Source of the DNA: Purpureocillium takamizusanense
Taxonomy: Eukaryota; Ascomycota; Sordariomycetes; Hypocreales; Ophiocordycipitaceae
DNA: 64,000 nt
Reading direction: 5' to 3'
Assembly: GCF_022605165.1 (NCBI RefSeq)
Contig: NC_063068.1
Location: 1,674,001-1,738,000 of the forward strand
Shown: one piece after another, positions 2,551-45,916 of the stretch
Position numbering within the stretch: the first letter of the stretch is position 1
How the letters are laid out: the number at the start of each line of letters is the position of its first letter
Program-made: the position numbers and the translations under genes
The notes under the pieces: model-generated
Databases searched by the model: none
What the model was told of the DNA's origin: nothing
What the model saw: the letters and a program-made list of their open reading frames with translations, nothing else

Positions 2551-4136
2551 TCATCCGACCAACGTGTTCCTCCTGCTCCTATCGGCTCGCATGTCTTTCC
2601 GTCCCACCAACGACTCAAGAGTCTGACCCAGCGCGTTTGCGTCGTATCGGCCGCCAGTGGGCCCGTACAGCCTTGTCGTCTCGATACCAATATTCCCCAG
2701 CCGCTGTTTGTCGACAGCAGGGGCCGCTGGCCCATCTATGTGAATTACATGGGTCACATAGGCCCCGTACTCGTCCTCTGTCGGCCGTGGCAAGCCTCTC
2801 GAGTCGGCGCACGCATTGGCGATTGCGGCCACAAAGTCCAGCCCGGTGAAAGGATTGCTCGAGGGCCCTGTCTCTCTATCCGTGCTCCCATTAATAATAA
2901 GAATCTTGTTGCGGATATACGGACTCGCAACAGCCTCGCCGACACCCTTGAGAACCAGATTAGGGATCAGCGATGTGAAGAGGGAGCCGATGCTGTATAT
3001 AATGGTGTTGGCGGAGTTGATGGCGTCGAGAACTCGCGGGTTAGCGGGAATGCGAATTTCCTGGCCGTATGGATTGATGTACCAAATCCTGTCGATACGA
3101 GTGGGCAGGTCTTCCTCGTCCACCTTGGAAAAGGCGATGGCCGGACGCCTCAGCGCAGGCAAGGAGCCAGGAAGGTTTGCATCTTCCACCTCGTCGTGCT
3201 CCTCCGCGTCATGACCTATAGATGGTGCCGGGGTGTGTGCCCCCGTGCTGAAGGCGCCATTGACGGGAACAGCCGCCGTCGGCGCGCTCGGATGCGAAAT
3301 GTCATTCTGCCCGGTGATGACAGTCCCATCCTGGAGTCCAGCGGCAATGTGGTGCGCAAAGTTGGTGTTGAGCGCCGGCAGGACGCTCACCCGCTCCGGC
3401 ACGGCGCAGATGGAGCTTAGGAGATAAATGGCGGCCTCGAAGCTGCCGGTGAACAGACGAGCACCCGTGAGGAATATGTTGCCGATGCTGGAGCGGGAAA
3501 AGTCGAAGCGGCTGGTGGGTCGCATACGCTTGATGACTTCGAGGTTGAAGCTGTTGAGGTAGGACCGAATGAGCTCGCGCTTTGGGGATGAGATGTCGCG
3601 CCACAGCGGGTGCGTGGTCTCGAGAATCTCGAACCATTCGGCCCGCGCATCTGCATGGACCCTGGGAAGGCGGTGGTTGAACAAGTGCTTGATGGCGACC
3701 GTCTCGGGGTCATTGTTGTCGGGGATGAGCCTCACCAGCCGGGATCTGACGTCGCCGATTCCTGTTGTTGAAGAGTCAACTTGCTGCTGCCCGACACAAG
3801 CCTCAAGAGCCCCAGCCGAGCAGACGCACCAGGCCCGCCAAAGACACGGATGATTTCGCTGGTGCTGCCGCCATTGTCGGAGATGGGTATCACGTAGCTG
3901 AGGGTGGCGCGGTTGGCCTCGCGGACGCGCTCAAAGACGTCAACCAGGCTGTTGGCCGCGCTGCCGCCGGAGAATACCACGATGCCGCCGCGGGCCTCCG
4001 GGTTCGGGCTAATGGCGCGACGCGGCGACGACGACGATGTTGCAGGATGAGGGCCGGACGCCACGTGCGCGGGGGCCGTGCTGGCGGCGGGCAGTTGCAG
4101 TGATGAACCCTGCTGCTGTGGCGGGGGGTGTGCCAT
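2551..4136 (-). CDS. CofD/YvcK-like (UPF0052) family protein
   Basis: This is a two-exon gene of 505 residues. Exons are 4136-3830 and 3761-2551; the 68-nt intron (3762-3829) has donor GTGCGT and acceptor CAG and rejoins the motif GGPGIGD exactly. The family shares a Rossmann-like fold with 2-phospho-L-lactate transferase (CofD) and bacterial YvcK. Visible motifs are GGIVVFSGGSAANSL at about residues 50-64 and DNGGSTSEI at 87-95, the region that binds the phosphorylated ligand in CofD/YvcK. NIFLTGARLF lies further on, in exon 2. The centre carries a low-complexity insert (about 230-270), and the N-terminal 45 residues are Pro/Ser/Ala-rich. Fungi are not known to make cofactor F420 by the bacterial route, so a YvcK-like sugar-nucleotide-sensing or other role is more likely. 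Its biochemical function is unknown. Confidence 0.9.
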
Positions 4137-36505: not shown

Positions 36506-37659
36506 TCAAATCCCCGGCATGCCGACAATGGATCGCACCGCCGGCACAAATCTCGGCACGTAGTACACGGCGTACGCCCCGATGAGCGCCGTCAACAGAC
36601 CCGTCAACTAGTCACGTCTCCAACGTCAGCATCGTGCCCACCACGCAAGCTTCGCCGCACAAGATCCCAAAAAAAATCAACGCTCACCTTTTCAAACCAC
36701 GTGTGAAAGTAAATCGCCGTCATCAGCAGCATCCAGAGGTTCAGCCCCGCCACTGCCGCGGCCGTCTTGCCCCCCGCGCCGAGCTGCTGCATCAGCGTCT
36801 GGTCGTCCTCCTCCTCGCCGCCGCCACGGCCGCCGCCGGGCGCCTCCTCGGCCTCGACGCCCGCGCTCTTGAGTGCCCCGTCGCCCATCACCACGCACCG
36901 CTCCTCGCGCGCGCGTCCACTCCACCTCAGGACCGGCCAGCCCACCTCCTGTAGTAGAAATACCGTCCCCAGCACGAGCAGGAACACGTGGCCCGAGATG
37001 TCGTGCCCGCCGCGCCACCGGCCGCCCGCCGCCTTACACGCCACGGCCGTGATGACCTCGCCGGCGCGCGCCGTCCCCGCCTCCACCTGGCGCTCCACCA
37101 TCTCGCACTGCCCGCCCGTCCACCGGAACCCGCGGTCAATGAGCGGCGCGCCGAAGCACCACTGCGTGACGAGGAACCACCACCCCGTGACGAGCGCCCA
37201 CCGCGCCCCCGCCCGCATCCTCCGCACCGTGAGCTCCATCGCCGTCGGTCCACCGCTCGGGTGCGTCAGCAGGAAAAACACAAAGGCAAACGTCGTCCAC
37301 CCCCAGCCGCGCTTCACGAACACCACGTTGACCACATTGGACTTGCGCGCAAAGTAGCTCGGCGCCGCGCCCGGGTCCTGCGCGTGGGCCTGCAACACCG
37401 GGTCGTACGCCGCGGCGCGCGTCTCGGGCGACAGCACGGCGAAGACGGTGCCAAATACCAGTATAAGCGGGAAGACTGCGAGGACCACCCGCTCGAGCGG
37501 CGTGGGCAGCCAGGCCGGCGTGCGTGTCATCCTCTTCGTCGTCGTTGTGGTCGTCGCCCCGGTCGGCGGTCGCGAGTTTCGAGCCGGAGACGGCTTCCGT
37601 GGAGGCAGGCCGTCTCCTCCCATCTCTGCGGCGGCAGCGCTGCGGCGTGTTGTGACCAT
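36506..37659 (-). CDS. SCS3: FIT/Scs3-family ER lipid protein (acyl-CoA diphosphatase-like)
   Basis: Two exons (37659-36688 and 36607-36506) give 357 residues. The 80-nt intron has donor GTGAGC and acceptor TAG and joins FEK to LTGLL in phase 0. FIT (fat-storage-inducing transmembrane) proteins are multi-pass ER proteins that cleave fatty acyl-CoA and are needed for normal lipid droplet budding and phospholipid homeostasis. The two catalytic histidines are in place: H224 in GHDISGHVF and H319 in TAIYFHTWFEK. Hydrophobic segments lie at about 57-77, 121-131, 155-170, 222-236, 300-317 and in the second exon. A Gly/Glu-rich loop at about 260-290 is an insertion. The N-terminal 50 residues are basic and disordered. 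The short last exon provides the final helix and the C-terminus PGI. Confidence 0.9.
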
Positions 37660-38507: not shown

Positions 38508-40300
38508 TTACACTGGCTTCATCTCCTCCCTAGACAGGTGGAGGTCCCCATACTTGGCATGCTTGGAGAAGCGACAGTCCCTTCCCCGATTGCAATACGG
38601 GTCTTGCGGGCAGTGGTGGCTGAGGACGCAGTCAAAGTTCATACACTTGGGTCCATGGTGACAAGGGCTGGTGCGCGCCTTGTAGCGATGGACGCTTAGT
38701 TCCTCAGCCGTCAGCCTCGTCTCATGCTCTCTGGCGCAACTAGTCGAGCCGCAGTGTCCCATCAGGTAATGGGCGTTACAGAATGCACCCATTTTCGCCT
38801 CCTGGAGCTTCTTCCGGTACGTGTCTTGGGCCAGTGATCCGGATGGCAATTTGACGGGTGGGTCAATGCGAATATTCTCCCTATTGAGATCAATGGTCCT
38901 GAGCGGTCGGGCCTTAGTGCTTCTGACGGCCAGGTTCTGGTGTCCATTGGCCCCACCAGCCGATGCATAGCTTCCTTTGTGCTTAATAGAAACACCACCG
39001 TTCCCTGAGCTAACAATAGTCGCCTCGGGAAGATGCTTTACCGATGGCGGCGGTGTCGGCGTCGTACTCGGTGTCAGGGCATTCGTCAGAACCGCGTCGA
39101 AGACGGGAGCAGGAGGGCTGGCGGCTTTTCTCTGAGGAGGCGGCGGCTGCTGCTGCTGCGGCTGCAACATACTAGGCTTGGTCTCGTTATTTAGTGGTGT
39201 ATCGCGAAAAACATTGTCGAAACGAATAATGGGCAGGCCCAGGTTCCTAATGTTTTGTTCCGCCGGCGTCGTCTCTACGAGAACGATGCGGTTGTCCCTA
39301 TCGCCGATATACGGACGCAGGGCGTGGGTATAGCCTCCATCGTGACAAGCAACGAAGAAGATCTTTTTGCAGCGGATATCCTTGTGATAGTAGTTAAGCA
39401 TGCCTGCAGAACGTTGGATCAGCACGTCGCGCCCACGAGACCGGACAGGTTACACAACAGAGGGTTGGGGGAGTTGGGGAGTGCGTACGCCTCAATTTGG
39501 AGTCGGCGTTTTCCTTGCCGTGGCCGACATTGACGAAATCGAACTCGGCGCGGCTATTGGTAAGGTTCTCGGCAAAATTATACATGTCTTCGTCTTGATT
39601 GATGACGCCCGATATGCGCAGGGCCCTAGCAAGGCCTTTGACGTTGGCAAAGATGCGAACAAAGATGTGCACATCGTCGCCGAGGGGTGTGTCGTTGCGG
39701 AGGTAATCGACAATCTGCTGCTTGAGCAGCTGGGCAGCCTCAACGGAGCCGTGGGCAGGGTCTCTCAGCAGGCTATCTCGGAACTTGGCGCCGTCGCCGT
39801 CGACGAGAACGGCAACATAGGCATCGTTATTCTGCGCGGGCAAGAACTGGTGGTGAGCACGCAGGCACACTATACACACAAAGTGCACCGGCGGCGGCAG
39901 ATATATGCGGTTTTCATACGCACCATAAGACGTTTGTACTCTTCGTTGCGAGCCATGCAGTCGGCGGCCTGTTGCTGGTACATGATGCGGGACGAGCTCT
40001 GGGCGTCGAGATCCAGCCTCAGGCGACGGATCTCTTCATCGTTGCTGGCGACTCTCTGCAGCAGCATCTGTACACACACAAAAACACACACACCAAACGC
40101 GGGTCAGTGCTGGTTCCTGGGTCTTGTTGTTGGTCGTGGGCATACGCAGGTACGTGTGCCACGTGCCTCGCGTGCGACGTACGTACCTGAACGAAGCGAT
40201 TCCTCTCCATGTCCTGCTCTGCCCATTTCTGATAGCAGGCGGCGAGCTCGCCGACCTGGGCCGAATTGACGGCGTGCTGCGCTTTCGTAGTTTCGTCCAT
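38508..40300 (-). CDS. NYN-like nuclease-fold protein with CCCH zinc fingers
   Basis: Four exons (40300-40187, 40067-39924, 39831-39489, 39403-38508) encode 498 residues. Residues 1-86 form a likely coiled coil (ERNRFVQ through RRLRLDLDAQ). Residues about 87-240 look like a NYN/PIN-type domain. It opens with AVLVDGDGAKF (D97, D99), has KENADSKLRR in the middle (D196), and ends with KIFFVACHDGGYTHAL (D222); these acidic positions match metal ligands of that fold. A disordered Pro/Gln/Ser linker follows. CCCH-type fingers come at about 409-427 (C-x8-C-x4-C-x3-H) and 448-482 (C-x5-C-x4-C-x3-H plus a following Cys cluster). The arrangement, NYN-like domain then CCCH, recalls Regnase-type RNases. 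RNA binding is likely and RNA cleavage possible. The NYN assignment is my own pattern match. Confidence 0.88.
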
Positions 40301-41836
40301 GCTGTATGTGCGAATGGGTGGACGAAGGGGGGGAATGAAGGAGAGGGAAGCCCGCCAGCAAGCGGCGACAAGAACTGAAAAAGAAGCAGTAGCTTTTTAG
40401 CAGTGGTAGCATCAGGAGCACCAGCAGCAGCGGGCAAGCAAGCAGAAGCTGGGCCGTGCGGGAGAGGCGTTATTAGGGCGGGGAGGACAAAGGTTGGAGA
40501 AGGAAGGGACAGGGACTGACTGGTGGGCCCCCAATTCAGCAGCAGGGCTGGGCTGGGCTGGGCTGGCAGAAAGAATTGCCCGCCCAGTAGTGCTCGAGTG
40601 TGGTGGTGCTTGAGCACCATTGACAGGGGCCAGACGACGGCACCCTGTGTATGCTTCACCACCCGGGTTACCACCCGACTGCCGCGTTCCATGTATGTAT
40701 TGTAGGGGTCGTGATGATTGCGGTTGGCCGAAAAACAAAAAGTACTGCTACTACAAAGCAATAAACTCCCTTAAACGAGTCGTGCCGACGTCACGTCGGT
40801 CGGCAGTGGCTGCCGCGCCCGCCGGGAAGGGAGATCTGCAAGGTGCCGAAACTCACGCGCCCCCGACTGCTACCTTGACCTCCACTCTCTGCAGCAAAGC
40901 TGTTTTCTTTCCTGCAAGCCAGCGTTGTTGTTTTTTCCGTGCCTGTCAGGAATTGGACTCCTGCCCACCCACCAACAATTTCAGATCCACGGCGACGAGT
41001 CTGCGGCGGCTTGAGGATCGCGACATGGATCGAGTCCCACTGCCCGCCCACTCTCAGCCAGCGTCCGTGCTGCGTAAGACTTGTTACCTACTCCCTTCCA
41101 GATGGTACTTCGCGGCATGGTGTCCGTCATTAGCGGGGCGTGCCGGTCCATGCATTGCTTTCTTGCCTGCTGTACTGCATGCATCTACCCAAGGTACAAC
41201 TAATAACCTGCGTGGTATCTGGTCAACCTGACGCGCGGGTTGTTTCCTATGCCATACTATTTACCTAGTACTTACGTAGTGGTGGGCCGTGGGCCGAACT
41301 GAGTCCCGCCCCTCCCTGTCAATATTAGCCGAAGTTTTCAAAAGGGTTGCCCATTTCCACAGGCATCGCTCAAAGAGGAAACCTCGAGTGGAGGGAGCTC
41401 TTTCCATCCTGCCAGCACCTCGCATGAATGGACCACGCGACTGCCTCCGAAAAAGAAAATTACTTTTTTTCTCCTTTCCTTTTCTTTTTTTCTTTGTGTT
41501 CTTTCTTCACGCCCTGACTACGAACGTGATGGGCCTCGTTTTGCTTTTTCCTCCCCACTCATTTCCTCTGCTCCTTCTCGTCGGGAAATGAAGCGTCACG
41601 GTTCCTGACCCAGACAGACAGGCCCAAGGGCAGCAAGCCAGGGTCATCCGTGTTCCCGTCATCAGGCCGCCGCCGCGGCGGAACCGCCCAGTGGTTCGTT
41701 ATGCCGGGGCGTTCATCAAGCACGCACGTCAGCCAACCCGCACGCACGGGCAATCAAAAAGACAGCAGCAAGCTCAAGCACAGGCCACACGACCCCAGCC
41801 AACCACGAGGCGCCGGGAGTAGTACGTAGTGTTAAC
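40301..41836. other. Gene-free interval upstream of the ncRNA elements
   Basis: It contains the CCCH gene promoter, a GGGCTGGGCTGGGCTGGC repeat (40549-40566), a pyrimidine tract (41455-41510) and no convincing gene. The open frame at 41289-41591 is mostly low-complexity Phe/Leu from T-runs. Confidence 0.45.
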
Positions 41837-41843
41837 TTATAGA
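41837..41843 (+). promoter_or_regulatory. TATA-like element of ncRNA element 1
   Basis: TTATAGA; its TATA part starts 29 nt before the first base of the 72-nt element. Elements 2 (TCATAGAG near 42304) and 3 (TTATAATGG near 42911) have similar AT-rich motifs at 29 and 30 nt. Confidence 0.45.
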
Positions 41844-41866
41844 CCAACATAGTGCGCCAGTCCTTC

Positions 41867-41938
41867 AGCGAAGTAGCGACGAACACTTGAGACTTTCGCC
41901 TGATACGATTTAATCCCATGCTCGTTAGAGCCTTCGCT
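41867..41938 (+). ncRNA. tRNA-sized Pol III-like element 1 (72 nt), unknown family
   Basis: The first seven bases AGCGAAG pair perfectly with the last seven CTTCGCT. TA follows at positions 8-9 and GC at 10-11, as in a tRNA. A short 3' hairpin GCTC-GTTA-GAGC abuts the closing strand, and five Ts (41938-41942) follow, a Pol III terminator. There is no T-arm, no CCA and no canonical tRNA cloverleaf. The TAGC at position 8 resembles the start of an A box. A perfect B box lies 24 nt past the element. Two further elements with the same ends follow downstream. Function unknown; no coding potential. Confidence 0.55.
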
Positions 41939-41966
41939 TTTTGCCCCTTCTTTTTGAAAGCTCCTG

Positions 41967-41977
41967 GGTTCGAGTCC
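41967..41977 (+). promoter_or_regulatory. External B box of element 1
   Basis: It matches the Pol III B-box consensus GGTTCGANTCC at all positions (GGTTCGAGTCC) and sits in a T-arm-like hairpin (CTGGG/CCCGG). It lies downstream of the T-run, as the external B box does in yeast U6 genes. Confidence 0.5.
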
Positions 41978-42334
41978 CGGCGATGTAAAGGTAGGTTACT
42001 TGCACAATGTACGAAGTAGACGTTGCGCTCTCCGTCTCCAGCTGACCTGCTCGTCCCTCTTCCTCTTCCTCTTTTCTTCTTCTTTTCTTTGTCGCTTTGT
42101 TCTCTTCAATATCGTTTTCCATTTTTTTTTTCCCATGACCACCCCGCGCGTGATCATCATCGTTGCGCCCGTGTGTCCATCGCCCGTCCCACGTCCGTAG
42201 ATGCACTGCGCCCACGCCCGACGACTGACTCACCCCGAGCAAGCGCTGCCTCTCAGCTCCGCCCCCGCCCCCCGCACTGCGCTCCAACTACCACCTTGGT
42301 ACCTTCATAGAGCAAAATAGCCAGCCGTCTTACC
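41978..42334. other. Spacer between ncRNA elements 1 and 2
   Basis: A pyrimidine-rich spacer with a T-run (42122-42131). The short open frame at 42000-42200 (+) is low-complexity Phe/Leu and is not supported. Confidence 0.45.
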
Positions 42335-42405
42335 AGCGAAGTAGCGGAACCGCGCATAGCGTGGAACCAAACAAAGAGGACATTTGCGCTCTATGAGCCT
42401 TCGCT
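42335..42405 (+). ncRNA. tRNA-sized Pol III-like element 2 (71 nt), unknown family
   Basis: It has the same ends as element 1: AGCGAAG at the start, CTTCGCT at the end, TA at positions 8-9, GC at 10-11, and five Ts at 42405-42409. The interior differs almost completely. It can form a 6-bp hairpin CCGCGC-ATA-GCGTGG and a 3' hairpin GCTC-TAT-GAGC. That 3' hairpin matches element 1 in its stem but not in its loop, as expected of a conserved structure. A perfect B box follows 33 nt downstream of the T-run. Confidence 0.55.
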
Positions 42406-42442
42406 TTTTGGTGTTTTTTTGGTGTGTGGTGACGATGGCTGG

Positions 42443-42453
42443 GGTTCGATTCC
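42443..42453 (+). promoter_or_regulatory. External B box of element 2
   Basis: It matches GGTTCGANTCC at all positions (GGTTCGATTCC) inside the hairpin CTGGG/CCCAG. It lies about 100 nt from the A-box-like TAGC of element 2, close to the spacing in elements 1 and 3 (93 and 95 nt). Confidence 0.5.
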
Positions 42454-42940
42454 CAGTTGACGACCAGGTTGCAGAGACCAAACCCAGGTGTAACTAAGCC
42501 GGGAGATAGACCACTTTACTCCCAAGATATAAGACGTCGCCTGATAGCATGCGCGGTGTTTTTTTTTTCTTCTTCTTGAATTTCTCACATTATTTTCCCC
42601 TCGCGCCTATGTGCTTTTCCTCTGCCAGAACGGAGATTCCTTGCGTTGACAGGGTCGATCCGCCACCGTCACTATCAAGGGTCCTGGCCGTTCCACGTAC
42701 TACCTTCGCGTGAACTCGTGCCGAGCGCCTGCCCCCGCTTTCCCACCTTGCAAGTCATCGTAGACAATGGTGCAAAGTACTGCTTATTACCAGCAGATTG
42801 ACTCATCGCGGCCAGCCAAAGAACGTGGCTACCAAGCCACACCCTTCGACTGCAACAGCTAACCCATCGACGGATAGCCCCCCCCCCCCCCCCCCTTTTA
42901 GAAACCACCTTTATAATGGAAAACTAAAGCTTACTGCTCT
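42454..42940. other. Spacer between ncRNA elements 2 and 3
   Basis: No gene seen. It contains a T-run (42560-42568) and a long poly-C run (42878-42895) just upstream of the TATA-like motif of element 3. Confidence 0.45.
42878..42895. repeat. Poly-C run (18)
   Basis: Eighteen consecutive Cs between AG and TTTTA, 46 bp upstream of ncRNA element 3. Confidence 0.9.
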
Positions 42941-42941
42941 C

Positions 42942-43027
42942 AGCGAAGTAGCTGTAACACAATTCCTTCGGGCTGCACCAAGTTTGCTAGTTCCCCCAAG
43001 TCGCAAGACTGTTTGGGGGCCTTCGCT
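42942..43027 (+). ncRNA. tRNA-sized Pol III-like element 3 (86 nt), unknown family
   Basis: AGCGAAG starts the element, CTTCGCT ends it, TA and GC follow the first strand as in elements 1 and 2, and five Ts occur at 43027-43031. The interior is longer, with a strong hairpin CCCCCAA...TTTGGGGG capped by GTC-GCAA-GAC next to the closing strand, where elements 1 and 2 have their short hairpins. A CC-TTCG-GG tetraloop motif lies near 42965. The downstream B-box match is weaker (CCTTCGAACCA at 43044-43054). Confidence 0.5.
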
Positions 43028-43054
43028 TTTTGGCAAGGCCATGCCTTCGAACCA

Positions 43055-43558
43055 GGCTGGCACTCAATTCTTTTTTTTTTGCCCCGACTGCTCAATGTTG
43101 CACGTCGTTTTCGCAGAGTCTCACACGTCCGCGCGTCGGCCGCCCGATGGTGAGTGTACCAGCTCTATGATATCTTTACTTTATTGCACCCACCACTCTA
43201 GCATTCCATCCATCGCCAACACCCGAGCTGCTCTTTTGCCACGGAATCACGCTCATTGCACTGCAAGTAAGAACAGGGCAGCTCCCCAAGTATTAAAAGT
43301 CTGCAACCGAAACATTTTCTTGGTCTCTCAATATGTACATTGTATCTACGGCCTTCAGCCGACCGATGGGACTGTGACCAACATGGTCGTCATCTTGAGC
43401 ACAGTCGTCACGGAGCCACAGAATGAAACCGGGCTCGTGGACGCTGGCGCCAGCTGTGCGGTGAAAGTTGACAAAGGACTATGTGCAAACGAAACGCTGC
43501 TGGCGGTACCAGCTCCGCCAGCCCCATTCCCGTCGTCCCCCCGCCCGAGATCACCGCT
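43055..43558. other. 3' flank of the GH55 gene
   Basis: It contains a T-run (43071-43080) and otherwise unremarkable sequence. The plus-strand open frame at 42798-43754 is antisense to the glucanase and partly low complexity, and is rejected. Confidence 0.45.
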
Positions 43559-45916
43559 CTACGACGCCTCAAAGACGGCAACGCAAGCGCCAAAGGTACT
43601 CCTGTTTTCTTCGTCCTTGGCTGCGACTGCACCGTCGAGCGTGATCATGGCAACACTAGCCTTAGTCGTGATGCCGAACAGCTCCACGGCCGACCTGTCA
43701 ATCGCCACCATGTTCTCCTGGCAGTTGTTGGCGGGAACACACGTCTGGTCGTAGTTGTCAAAGAAGCTGTAAAGGCCTCCGCCGTAGACAAAGATGTCCT
43801 TGGAGTCCTGGATGCGCAAGCCCCAGGTGCGAGCACACGTCTTGGACGTGCACTTGGAAAAGTCGGGGTCCGAGTACTTGGCATTCACCTTGAACGGCAC
43901 GTTGGCATCGGGGTTGCCCTGGAAGTAGGCCGTCTCCGTCTGGATAAGCGCCATGTATACGTTCTGCGCCTTGTTCAACTGGTAGTTGGACAGCACGCTG
44001 TGCTCAGACGAGGTTCCCCAGAGCCATGCGCCCTTGGTGCTCTCGATCAAGATGCCGCGGCCGTTGTAAATGTTGATCTGATTGTGGTCGGACAGGTCAA
44101 GCTCGTGGTCAGAGACCCAAGCCCAAACATTCTCGAGGTAGGGGCTGGCGGAGGATGTGATGTGCAGCAGCATGAAGGCACCAATGCACTCGGGTTTGGC
44201 CTGAGTCTGCTCTTTGGGGGTCTTGCTGCATTTGTTGGACTGCAGCTGAGTGCCCGCAGAGCCACCCACGCGGAAGTGCACGTCCCAAAGTCCGGCGGCG
44301 CCCTTGGACTGACCGGCAACGTTGAATTCCATGAGAATGGCACCGGGCTGAGGGCCTAGCGTCTCGAACATGAGGTCCTGCATCTCGACGGTGCCCACAT
44401 CGCCAGGCTGGCCGACCTGGAACACAGGCCTGGGATTGTCTTGGTCTTTGAAAGCCTTGTCACCGCCAGCCATGATGAGCGCCCAAATCTCGCCAACCAC
44501 TCTGACGTTCTTGGGAACCTTGACGGTGTCGGTAACGACGTAGGCGCCATGGGGAAAGTAGACAATCTCATCCGGACTGACGCTGTCGAAGATTGCCTGC
44601 AAAGCGGCAGTGTCGTCAGACTTGCCGTCGCCTTTAGCTCCCTTGTCCTTGACCGAGATGAACTTGGAAGCCGGCACGTCGCCGTACTGGGGCTTGCTCT
44701 TGGTGAAAATTCTGCCACTGTCGTCGGTAAGAGCTGCAGGCTTGGCTACCGGCTGGCGTTCGGCCTGTACAGCCTCGCCTTTGGTGCCCTTGTACGCGCG
44801 ACCCTGGACCCAGGAAGCGACGAGCTGGTTGCCTTCCAGGCGTGTCTCGCCGGTGCCGCCATTCTTGACAGCAACGGGGACGTTGGACGTCATGTCGACA
44901 TTGTCGAGGATGAGGGTGCCATTGGTACCCGTCTGGTCTTTGTCATAGACAGTGATGATGCCGACGGGAGTGTTGGCAATGGTGCTGTCCAGGAGGAGTA
45001 CAGAGCCAACGGTCTGAGCGCCGTTGTCGCTTTGGGACATGTCGATGCCGACACCGCAGTCCTTGATGGAGATTCCATGGAAGGTCCAGGCCCAGTTCCA
45101 CTGCAGTTGCACAGCCTTGTTGCACTTGTTGAACCGGAGGTTGCGAGTGGTGAACTGCTGGTTGCCGAAGAAGGCTCCCAGCGCACCACCGTTGAAGGTG
45201 AGGTCCGTCATGAAGCCACCAGAGCCGTTCTCCATGAAGATACCCTGCTGCTTGTTGTCTTGGCTGGTGTCCTCGATCATGTTGAACTCGATGTTCTGCA
45301 GGGACGTAGCTTGTGCCACCTGCCAGTGAATGCCCGTACCGGTGGTCTTGGGCTGGCCGGTGAGGTCGATCTTGAAGTTCCGAACCTGGCGGAAGAAGTT
45401 GTTCTGGTTTGTGAACCAGTTACCTCCAGTGCTATTGTAAGGGTTTGAGTCAATGACAGCGATGCCTTGAAAGTTGGCGGCGGCCTTCAGAACTGGAACT
45501 GAGTTGAAGTCACCAATGAGCTGCGTGTAATAGTAGGCGACGATGGGTTTGGAGACGAGATAAGTGCCAGGCGGAAAGTAGACGATGGCGGGGGTGACGG
45601 TGCTGGAGTCGCAGCCCTGTCCGCAGCGAGTTCCGTCGGTGATGGCGCTGTTGATGGCTGCGGTGTCGTCGGTGCTTCCATCTCCCTTGGCGCCGTAGTC
45701 CTTGACGCTGCGGAAGACCTTGTAGTCGCCCTGGCCGCCAAAAGCAACGGCACCCTGACGCTTGACGCCGGACATCCACCAGCCGGCGGCATCGGCATCG
45801 ACATCGGGGACATCCTTCTGGACGCTCGTCTTGGGCATGCACTTGCCGTCGGCGGGGAGGCAGAAGAGCTGAAGCGCCAGCACAGAGGCTGTAAGCAGGG
45901 TCGACAGCCCCATCAT
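43559..45916 (-). CDS. Secreted GH55 exo-beta-1,3-glucanase
   Basis: This is an intronless gene of 785 residues. The enzyme removes glucose from the non-reducing ends of beta-1,3-glucans in fungal cell walls. The N-terminus is a signal peptide (MMGLSTLLTASVLALQLF); two adjacent ATGs (45916, 45913) are equivalent. Two parallel beta-helix modules of the pectate-lyase-3 type each open with the family repeat: VKDYGAKGDGSTDDTAAI at about 70-87 and VKDKGAKGDGKSDDTAAL at about 425-442. Glu638 in WGTSSEHSVLSNYQ corresponds to the catalytic acid described for GH55 enzymes. Length and architecture are typical of Trichoderma BGN13.1-like enzymes. Together with the GH3 beta-glucosidase it could degrade glucan to glucose, either in self-wall turnover or in attack on other fungi. 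Confidence 0.95.
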   Translation of the reverse strand: MMGLSTLLTASVLALQLFCLPADGKCMPKTSVQKDVPDVDADAAGWWMSGVKRQGAVAFGGQGDYKVFRSVKDYGAKGDGSTDDTAAINSAITDGTRCGQGCDSSTVTPAIVYFPPGTYLVSKPIVAYYYTQLIGDFNSVPVLKAAANFQGIAVIDSNPYNSTGGNWFTNQNNFFRQVRNFKIDLTGQPKTTGTGIHWQVAQATSLQNIEFNMIEDTSQDNKQQGIFMENGSGGFMTDLTFNGGALGAFFGNQQFTTRNLRFNKCNKAVQLQWNWAWTFHGISIKDCGVGIDMSQSDNGAQTVGSVLLLDSTIANTPVGIITVYDKDQTGTNGTLILDNVDMTSNVPVAVKNGGTGETRLEGNQLVASWVQGRAYKGTKGEAVQAERQPVAKPAALTDDSGRIFTKSKPQYGDVPASKFISVKDKGAKGDGKSDDTAALQAIFDSVSPDEIVYFPHGAYVVTDTVKVPKNVRVVGEIWALIMAGGDKAFKDQDNPRPVFQVGQPGDVGTVEMQDLMFETLGPQPGAILMEFNVAGQSKGAAGLWDVHFRVGGSAGTQLQSNKCSKTPKEQTQAKPECIGAFMLLHITSSASPYLENVWAWVSDHELDLSDHNQINIYNGRGILIESTKGAWLWGTSSEHSVLSNYQLNKAQNVYMALIQTETAYFQGNPDANVPFKVNAKYSDPDFSKCTSKTCARTWGLRIQDSKDIFVYGGGLYSFFDNYDQTCVPANNCQENMVAIDRSAVELFGITTKASVAMITLDGAVAAKDEENRSTFGACVAVFEAS

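Follow-up and report, generated by a model that had tools for sequence, protein, structure and literature searches.

Three short elements arranged in tandem on the plus strand of the Purpureocillium takamizusanense genome are probably RNA polymerase III (Pol III) genes that encode one family of small RNAs. They lie in a 64,000-nt stretch of contig NC_063068.1 (positions 1,674,001 to 1,738,000), which is called the window here and to which all coordinates refer. The repeated ends, the closing stem, the promoter and terminator signals, and the confinement to a single locus are present in the sequence itself. The family looks undescribed, and its members appear to be built like the Y and vault RNAs of animals. 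To our knowledge, few Pol III RNAs beyond tRNA, 5S, U6, RNase P/MRP, and SRP RNAs are known in filamentous fungi, and no such family in Purpureocillium or other fungi was found in the titles and opening parts of abstracts of the open-licence literature. The locus gives exact start and stop coordinates for the candidate transcripts, and its parts are as follows.

41838..41841, plus strand: TATA-like box of element 1, TATA at −29 from A41867
41867..41938, plus strand: RNA body of element 1, 72 nt, from the end pattern and predicted fold
41867..41873, 41874..41875, and 41876..41877, plus strand: 5′ stem strand, UA bulge, and GC of element 1
41930..41931 and 41932..41938, plus strand: 3′ GC and 3′ stem strand of element 1
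41874..41884, plus strand: A-box-like TAGCGACGAAC of element 1, 5 of the 7 specified positions of TRGYNNARNNG by hand count
41938..41942, plus strand: T5 terminator of element 1, with a second T5 at 41951–41955
41967..41978, plus strand: external B box GGTTCGAGTCCC of element 1, inside a full T-arm-like hairpin
42306..42309, plus strand: TATA-like box of element 2, CATA at −29
42335..42405, plus strand: RNA body of element 2, 71 nt, from the end pattern and predicted fold
42335..42341, 42342..42343, and 42399..42405, plus strand: 5′ stem strand, UA bulge, and 3′ stem strand of element 2
42342..42352, plus strand: A box TAGCGGAACCG of element 2, a perfect TRGYNNARNNG
42405..42409, plus strand: T5 terminator of element 2, with a T7 back-up at 42414–42420
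42443..42454, plus strand: external B box GGTTCGATTCCC of element 2, T-arm-like
42912..42915, plus strand: TATA box of element 3, TATA at −30 in TTTATAAT
42942..43027, plus strand: RNA body of element 3, 86 nt, from the end pattern and predicted fold
42942..42948, 42949..42950, and 43021..43027, plus strand: 5′ stem strand, UA bulge, and 3′ stem strand of element 3
42949..42959, plus strand: A-box-like TAGCTGTAACA of element 3, 5 of 7 specified positions by hand count
43027..43031, plus strand: T5 terminator of element 3, with a T10 run at 43071–43080
43044..43054, plus strand: degenerate B-box-like CCTTCGAACCA of element 3, core TTCGA, 6 of 10 specified positions by hand count and thus below 8 of 10

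A preliminary description of this DNA had placed three plus-strand elements of 72, 71, and 86 nt at 41867, 42335, and 42942. These positions are borne out, and all three elements share the 5′ end CAGCGAAGTAGC and the 3′ end GCCTTCGCTTTTTG. The two ends form a perfect 7-bp stem, which is found at the spacings of the elements in 24 of 191,670 position pairs in the window. The five Ts that had been described behind this stem are not separate from it; one T is shared, so that either 7 bp and four free U or 6 bp and five U are obtained.

The genome (35,574,015 bases in 14 contigs, of which the contig with the window holds 6,109,532) was searched on both strands with the paired ends, AGCGAAGTAGC-N40-70-CCTTCGCTTTTT. 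Three matches were obtained, all at this locus, and the reversed control gave none. The 14-nt 3′ end occurs exactly three times in the genome. The 12-nt 5′ end occurs exactly six times, three of them at the locus, and the other three exact sites, one on the minus strand, lack a paired 3′ end in the both-strand pattern search. When one mismatch was allowed, the 5′ end was found at 133 genome sites and the 3′ end at 19, of which 16 are outside the elements (reversed controls, 8). None of these 16 sites has the full 7-nt stem partner within the upstream 110 nt, the best reaching 4 to 6 of 7 positions, and the best downstream B-box score among them is 8 of 10, at one site. A looser pattern, GAAGTAGC-N45-75-GCCTTC, gave 11 genome sites, which are the three elements and eight others; the eight are background because the reversed controls give 25. 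A DNA search of 41820–43090 against the same genome returned only the self-match, although the short ends by themselves are invisible to such a search. The exact pattern has no match in a set of viral contigs or in one of prokaryote contigs, sets from which records very close to this genome may be missing. Protein searches with one spurious ORF across element 3 and another across element 1 found no relative, mis-annotated or otherwise.

The interiors are as unrelated as had been claimed, since their local alignments are at the level of shuffled sequences (p 0.95, 0.79, and 0.97). Identical ends around such interiors imply selection on the ends, and perfect ends around saturated interiors would be hard to explain by neutral decay of one repeat. 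The view that the elements form one family whose ends are constant and whose interiors are free, and are not a dispersed repeat, is upheld by the three paired-pattern copies and the lone self-match. The flanks are alike for one pair in particular. Over 100 nt upstream, the likeness of elements 1 and 2 is reached by none of 500 shuffles; elements 1 and 3 are not alike (0.87), and elements 2 and 3 barely so (0.09). Downstream likeness is confined to elements 1 and 2 (0.034) and is due to the B box.

No Rfam model covers the elements at the gathering score in the window. With the threshold relaxed to E up to 10 over 41780–43120, a single chance match was obtained, to ssnA, at 13.1 bits versus a cut-off of 37.3. 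A scan of the window with ARAGORN yields no tRNA, and the earlier exclusion of ordinary tRNAs is confirmed. A covariance model built from the three elements (R1) finds these three alone in the window.

Most of the case for genes is carried by two features that the preliminary description missed, a tRNA-type motif upstream and B boxes downstream. The 60 nt in front of 30 tRNA genes, with the elements left out, were used to derive a 20-nt motif, cCCttCATAaccCCAAATAG, by EM; these 30 are drawn from at least 60 tRNA matches in the genome. The best places of the motif are at −36, −34, and −34 of elements 1, 2, and 3. The scores are reached by about 100, 1, and 48 of 3120 random 60-nt stretches (3.2%, 0.03%, and 1.5%), and the single stretch that equals element 2, the top scorer of the three, is possibly element 2 itself. 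The motif is thus strong for element 2 and modest for elements 1 and 3. It is also a loose one: among the 30 tRNA genes, the best position varies between −22 and −60, and many of these genes score low, several of them below the elements. With the start taken as the first base of the 5′ end, which is inferred, TATA, CATA, and TATA stand inside the motif, at −29, −29, and −30. A run of 18 C occupies 42878–42895, just upstream of the TATA box of element 3.

Each element has TAGC at +8 to +11, as in the A box of tRNA genes. The TA at positions 8–9, taken earlier as a tRNA-like feature, is indeed present, and the best reading of it is an A-box start. The A-box consensus is TRGYNNARNNG; it is complete in element 2 only, and elements 1 and 3 agree at 5 of 7 positions. 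Perfect A-box matches are common by chance, with 63 in the window versus 53.8 expected.

The window contains two sites of the B-box pattern GGTTCGANTCC, both of them here, while 0.18 are expected for the whole window. They are perfect B boxes, one 24 nt after the T5 of element 1 and the other 33 nt after that of element 2. No other place in the genome shows CTTTTT-N5-35-GGTTCGANTCC (three overlapping matches at the two elements; reversed controls, 2). The looser TTTTT-N-GTTCGANTCC adds three other genome places (reversed controls, 2 and 9, that is, 11), and none of the three has the element ends in the paired-pattern search of the genome. The B box of element 3 is doubtful because CCTTCGAACCA matches just 6 of 10 positions. 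The A-to-B spacing is 93, 101, and 95 nt for bodies of 72, 71, and 86 nt. It stays nearly constant despite the body length, since terminator and B box are 24, 33, and 12 nt apart. For three genes, this spacing is suggestive and is no proof. The positions around the B box form 5 of 5, 4 of 5, and 1 of 5 T-arm-like pairs in elements 1, 2, and 3; five such pairs are formed at 0.9% of random positions and four at 6%. The earlier statement that the elements lack a T-arm holds for the RNA, but directly behind elements 1 and 2 the DNA has a B box that resembles a T-arm.

A T5 run stands behind all three elements, and a second T run follows each. Within 60 nt of the 30 tRNA genes, the first run of at least five T is T5 in 9, T6 in 9, T7 in 7, and longer in 4, and it is absent in 1. 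T5 is a plausible terminator because it is the first T run after 9 of the 30 tRNA genes. Four tRNA genes of one kind (GCCCGGTTAGCTCAATCGG...) carry (T/A)TTCCTATA directly behind them; in three of the four, the first T5 is 34–37 nt away, and in the fourth there is none within 60 nt. The ends of the elements fit a start about 29 nt after the TATA-like box and a stop in the T5 run. Such primary-transcript ends would suffice, and the processing that the preliminary description had suggested for these RNAs is not needed.

Two other genes of the same genome served as yardsticks. In the U6 gene, whose start is assumed by analogy, a TATA box stands about 30 nt upstream, and the best motif place is −34, at a score reached by 6% of random stretches. 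Fungal U6 introns are known to contain B boxes, and this gene has an apparent intron between GAAACGATG and ACAGAGA that carries the B box AGTTCGAATCC. Therefore, a displaced B box has precedent in this genome. The RNase MRP gene was also found. It has one 8/10 B-box match inside and no B box of at least 8/10 in the downstream 400 nt; as a promoter yardstick, it is neutral.

B boxes can be sites at which TFIIIC binds DNA without Pol III, and elements of this ETC-like kind would act as insulators, with the stem being incidental. The clear B boxes and the intergenic stretch between two minus-strand genes agree with such insulators. However, this explanation is very unlikely here, since it does not account for end stems that are perfect and identical, for T5 runs, for TATA-like boxes whose distance is fixed, or for an A-to-B spacing that is nearly constant.

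The tRNA-like boxes also bear on the possibility that the elements are tRNA-derived SINE copies or tRNA pseudogenes with a decayed middle. The A box starts at tRNA position 8, and the B boxes of elements 1 and 2 are T-arm-like with 5/5 and 4/5 pairs. The box of element 1 agrees with the T arm of one tRNA gene in this genome at 17 of 18 bases. However, 6 of 60 shuffles of element 1 do equally well against some tRNA gene, so that descent from a tRNA gene is only hinted at; for elements 2 and 3, the top alignment to a tRNA is in each case reached by 1 of 60 shuffles. We nevertheless regard decayed copies as quite improbable. There are three copies at a single locus, none of the 16 one-mismatch 3′-end sites has the full stem partner, the terminator lies between the A and B boxes, and the interiors retain no identity around perfect ends. 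No dispersed full-length copies, as expected of a SINE or MITE, are present in the genome. The elements may have arisen from tRNA genes, though not as a current repeat.

In the predicted folds, the closing stem AGCGAAG/CUUCGCU is formed in all three RNAs with outer pair probabilities of 0.74–1.0; in element 1, the pairs have 0.94–0.99 and the terminal A-U pair 0.75. The stem is invariant in all three, so that there is no covariation. In each predicted fold, the UA bulge sits in the 5′ strand and the U tail is unpaired. A possible inner GC/GC above the bulge has a low probability (0.27, 0.63, and 0.13 in elements 1, 2, and 3). The interiors fold differently: element 1 has weak pairing only, element 2 has a 6-bp hairpin, and element 3 is predicted to form the hairpin CCCCA-AGUC(GCAA)GACU-UGGGG with a 3-nt bulge. 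A hairpin directly before the closing strand had been described for each element. For elements 1 and 2, the complementary GCTC/GAGC is present in the sequence and absent from the predicted MFE structure; for element 3, the hairpin is found in the predicted MFE structure in a slightly different register. Compared with shuffled sequences, the folding of the whole RNAs is modest (z −1.63, −2.10, and −0.66). Element 1 contains one Sm-site-like string.

These folds are relevant to another product of Pol III in fungi. The elements might be precursors of microRNA-like small RNAs, as is milR-1 of Neurospora, for which PMC3547838 gives a precedent with the same polymerase, a TATA-like element, and a T run; the ends of the elements are hairpin-like as well. 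This is unlikely, because the predicted folds lack a long hairpin for a 20–22-nt duplex, with an outer stem of 7 bp and partly open interiors, and because the constant part is the end and not an arm. Moreover, milR-1 is reported to have neither an A nor a B box.

Constant ends with free interiors could also be those of guide RNAs of the snoRNA type, in which a constant end accompanies a variable antisense segment, and the preliminary description had suggested guide or cargo segments. Three intergenic H-box structures are reported for Ascomycota or Pezizomycotina (PMC8216456). The boxes of such RNAs are not found in the elements, however: a C box is present in 0 of 3 and CUGA in 1 of 3, and H-box-like strings occur with no ACA near the 3′ end. 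Neither the C and D boxes nor the H box with a terminal ACA is present, and relaxing the Rfam threshold to E 10 over 41780–43120 gave one match, which is due to chance. The suggested guide or cargo segments find no support in these boxes, and we consider guide RNAs hardly probable at all.

The elements lie between minus-strand ORFs at 38508–39888, which encode a DUF7923 domain and tandem CCCH zinc fingers, and a minus-strand GH55 glucanase gene (43559–45916), whose product has 90% identity to a Purpureocillium lilacinum protein and 85% to one of P. lavendulum. The DUF7923/CCCH product is a plausible RNA-binding protein. Its adjacency to the RNA genes is perhaps due to chance, and its role as a partner of the RNAs is only a neighbourhood guess. 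Elsewhere in the window, a minus-strand ORF at 2551–3735 has a PF01933 match (E 1.7e-27) to CofD of the 2-phospho-L-lactate transferase family, whose better-known members are archaeal and bacterial, and a single minus-strand ORF at 36604–37659 encodes a FIT (fat storage-inducing transmembrane) protein (PF10261, E 1.5e-78).

From these features we propose how the genes may work. TFIIIB would sit on the TATA-like box at about −30, and TFIIIC would span the A-box start at +8 and a B box that, as in yeast SNR6, follows the terminator and lies outside the gene. Pol III would start at the A of AGCGAAG and stop in T5. The resulting RNAs of about 75–90 nt would close their ends via AGCGAAG/CUUCGCU, with the UA bulge and perhaps GC/GC, and would keep the U tail. 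We infer that the invariant bulged stem and the U tail may form a common handle for La and one further partner. The interior would be freed from promoter constraint because the B box sits outside the RNA; it could thus evolve freely, each RNA having its own loops, as in Y RNAs, sbRNAs, and vault RNAs. The displacement of the B box would show a route by which the middle of a transcript becomes free while its ends stay fixed. Whether the RNAs act in a Y- or vault-like manner is more doubtful than their assignment as genes, and we put such a mode of action forward tentatively.

Among known Pol III genes, SNR6, which encodes the U6 RNA of Saccharomyces cerevisiae, is similar to the elements in its T-run terminator, and to elements 1 and 2 in the clear B box that follows it. 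SNR6 also has an upstream TATA box and an A box near its start. Its B box is located about 120 nt beyond the terminator (PMC1796607). In contrast, the B box of elements 1 and 2 is only 24–33 nt past the terminator, the RNA of the elements is not U6 as judged by Rfam, and there are three paralogous genes. The U6 gene of P. takamizusanense differs from this layout in that its B box is in an intron. The elements resemble the tRNA genes of the same genome in the upstream motif, the A-box start at position 8, the T-arm-type B box, and the T5–T7 runs. Unlike those genes, however, their RNA has no anticodon arm or T arm, their B box follows the terminator, and they are not called by ARAGORN; they form no cloverleaf, and the T-arm-like sequence comes after the terminator.

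Neurospora milR-1 is transcribed by Pol III with a TATA-like element and a T run just downstream (PMC3547838), and its host is likewise a filamentous ascomycete. It yields microRNA-like RNAs, whereas the predicted folds of the elements contain no long hairpin that would give a 20–25-nt duplex. A conserved-structure screen of five fungi reported 17 RNAs, and none matching the description of the elements was found in the accessible part of that report (PMC8216456). A re-analysis of fungal hairpin RNAs likewise contains nothing on this locus in its accessible part (PMC9757828).

In build, the elements resemble two families of animal RNAs. Y RNAs are Pol III transcripts, encoded by clustered genes in humans, that have paired ends and keep the U tail; their lower stem has a 7-bp helix and bulges, and their loop sequence is highly variable (PMC4726728). 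The elements are like Y RNAs and the stem-bulge RNAs of nematodes in their predicted terminal stem of about 7 bp with a bulge, their U tail, and their variable interior. However, in Y RNAs the upper stem is also conserved and both strands are bulged, and the elements have neither, with a single UA bulge. A six-frame search of the genome for the Ro60/TROVE domain (PF05731) gave no match, though an intron-split gene could escape it; the control search with PF05731 gave a match in 1 of 14 genomes. With no Ro60 domain found in the genome and no Rfam match, we reject the identity of the elements as Y RNAs. Vault RNAs are Pol III transcripts of about 80–140 nt with conserved ends and a variable middle, and their clustered genes have A and B boxes. 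The elements share the clustered genes, the conserved ends, and the variable middle; they have no Rfam match, and their B box is outside the RNA. It is conceivable, though we hold it with some reserve, that they are a fungal counterpart of the Y and vault RNAs: clustered Pol III RNAs whose bulged terminal stem and U tail are read by one shared protein other than Ro60, whose interiors are free to specialise, and whose promoter is a compact one of the SNR6 type. If this is true, one protein bound via the shared stem would be an independent solution to the role that Y and vault RNAs play in animals.
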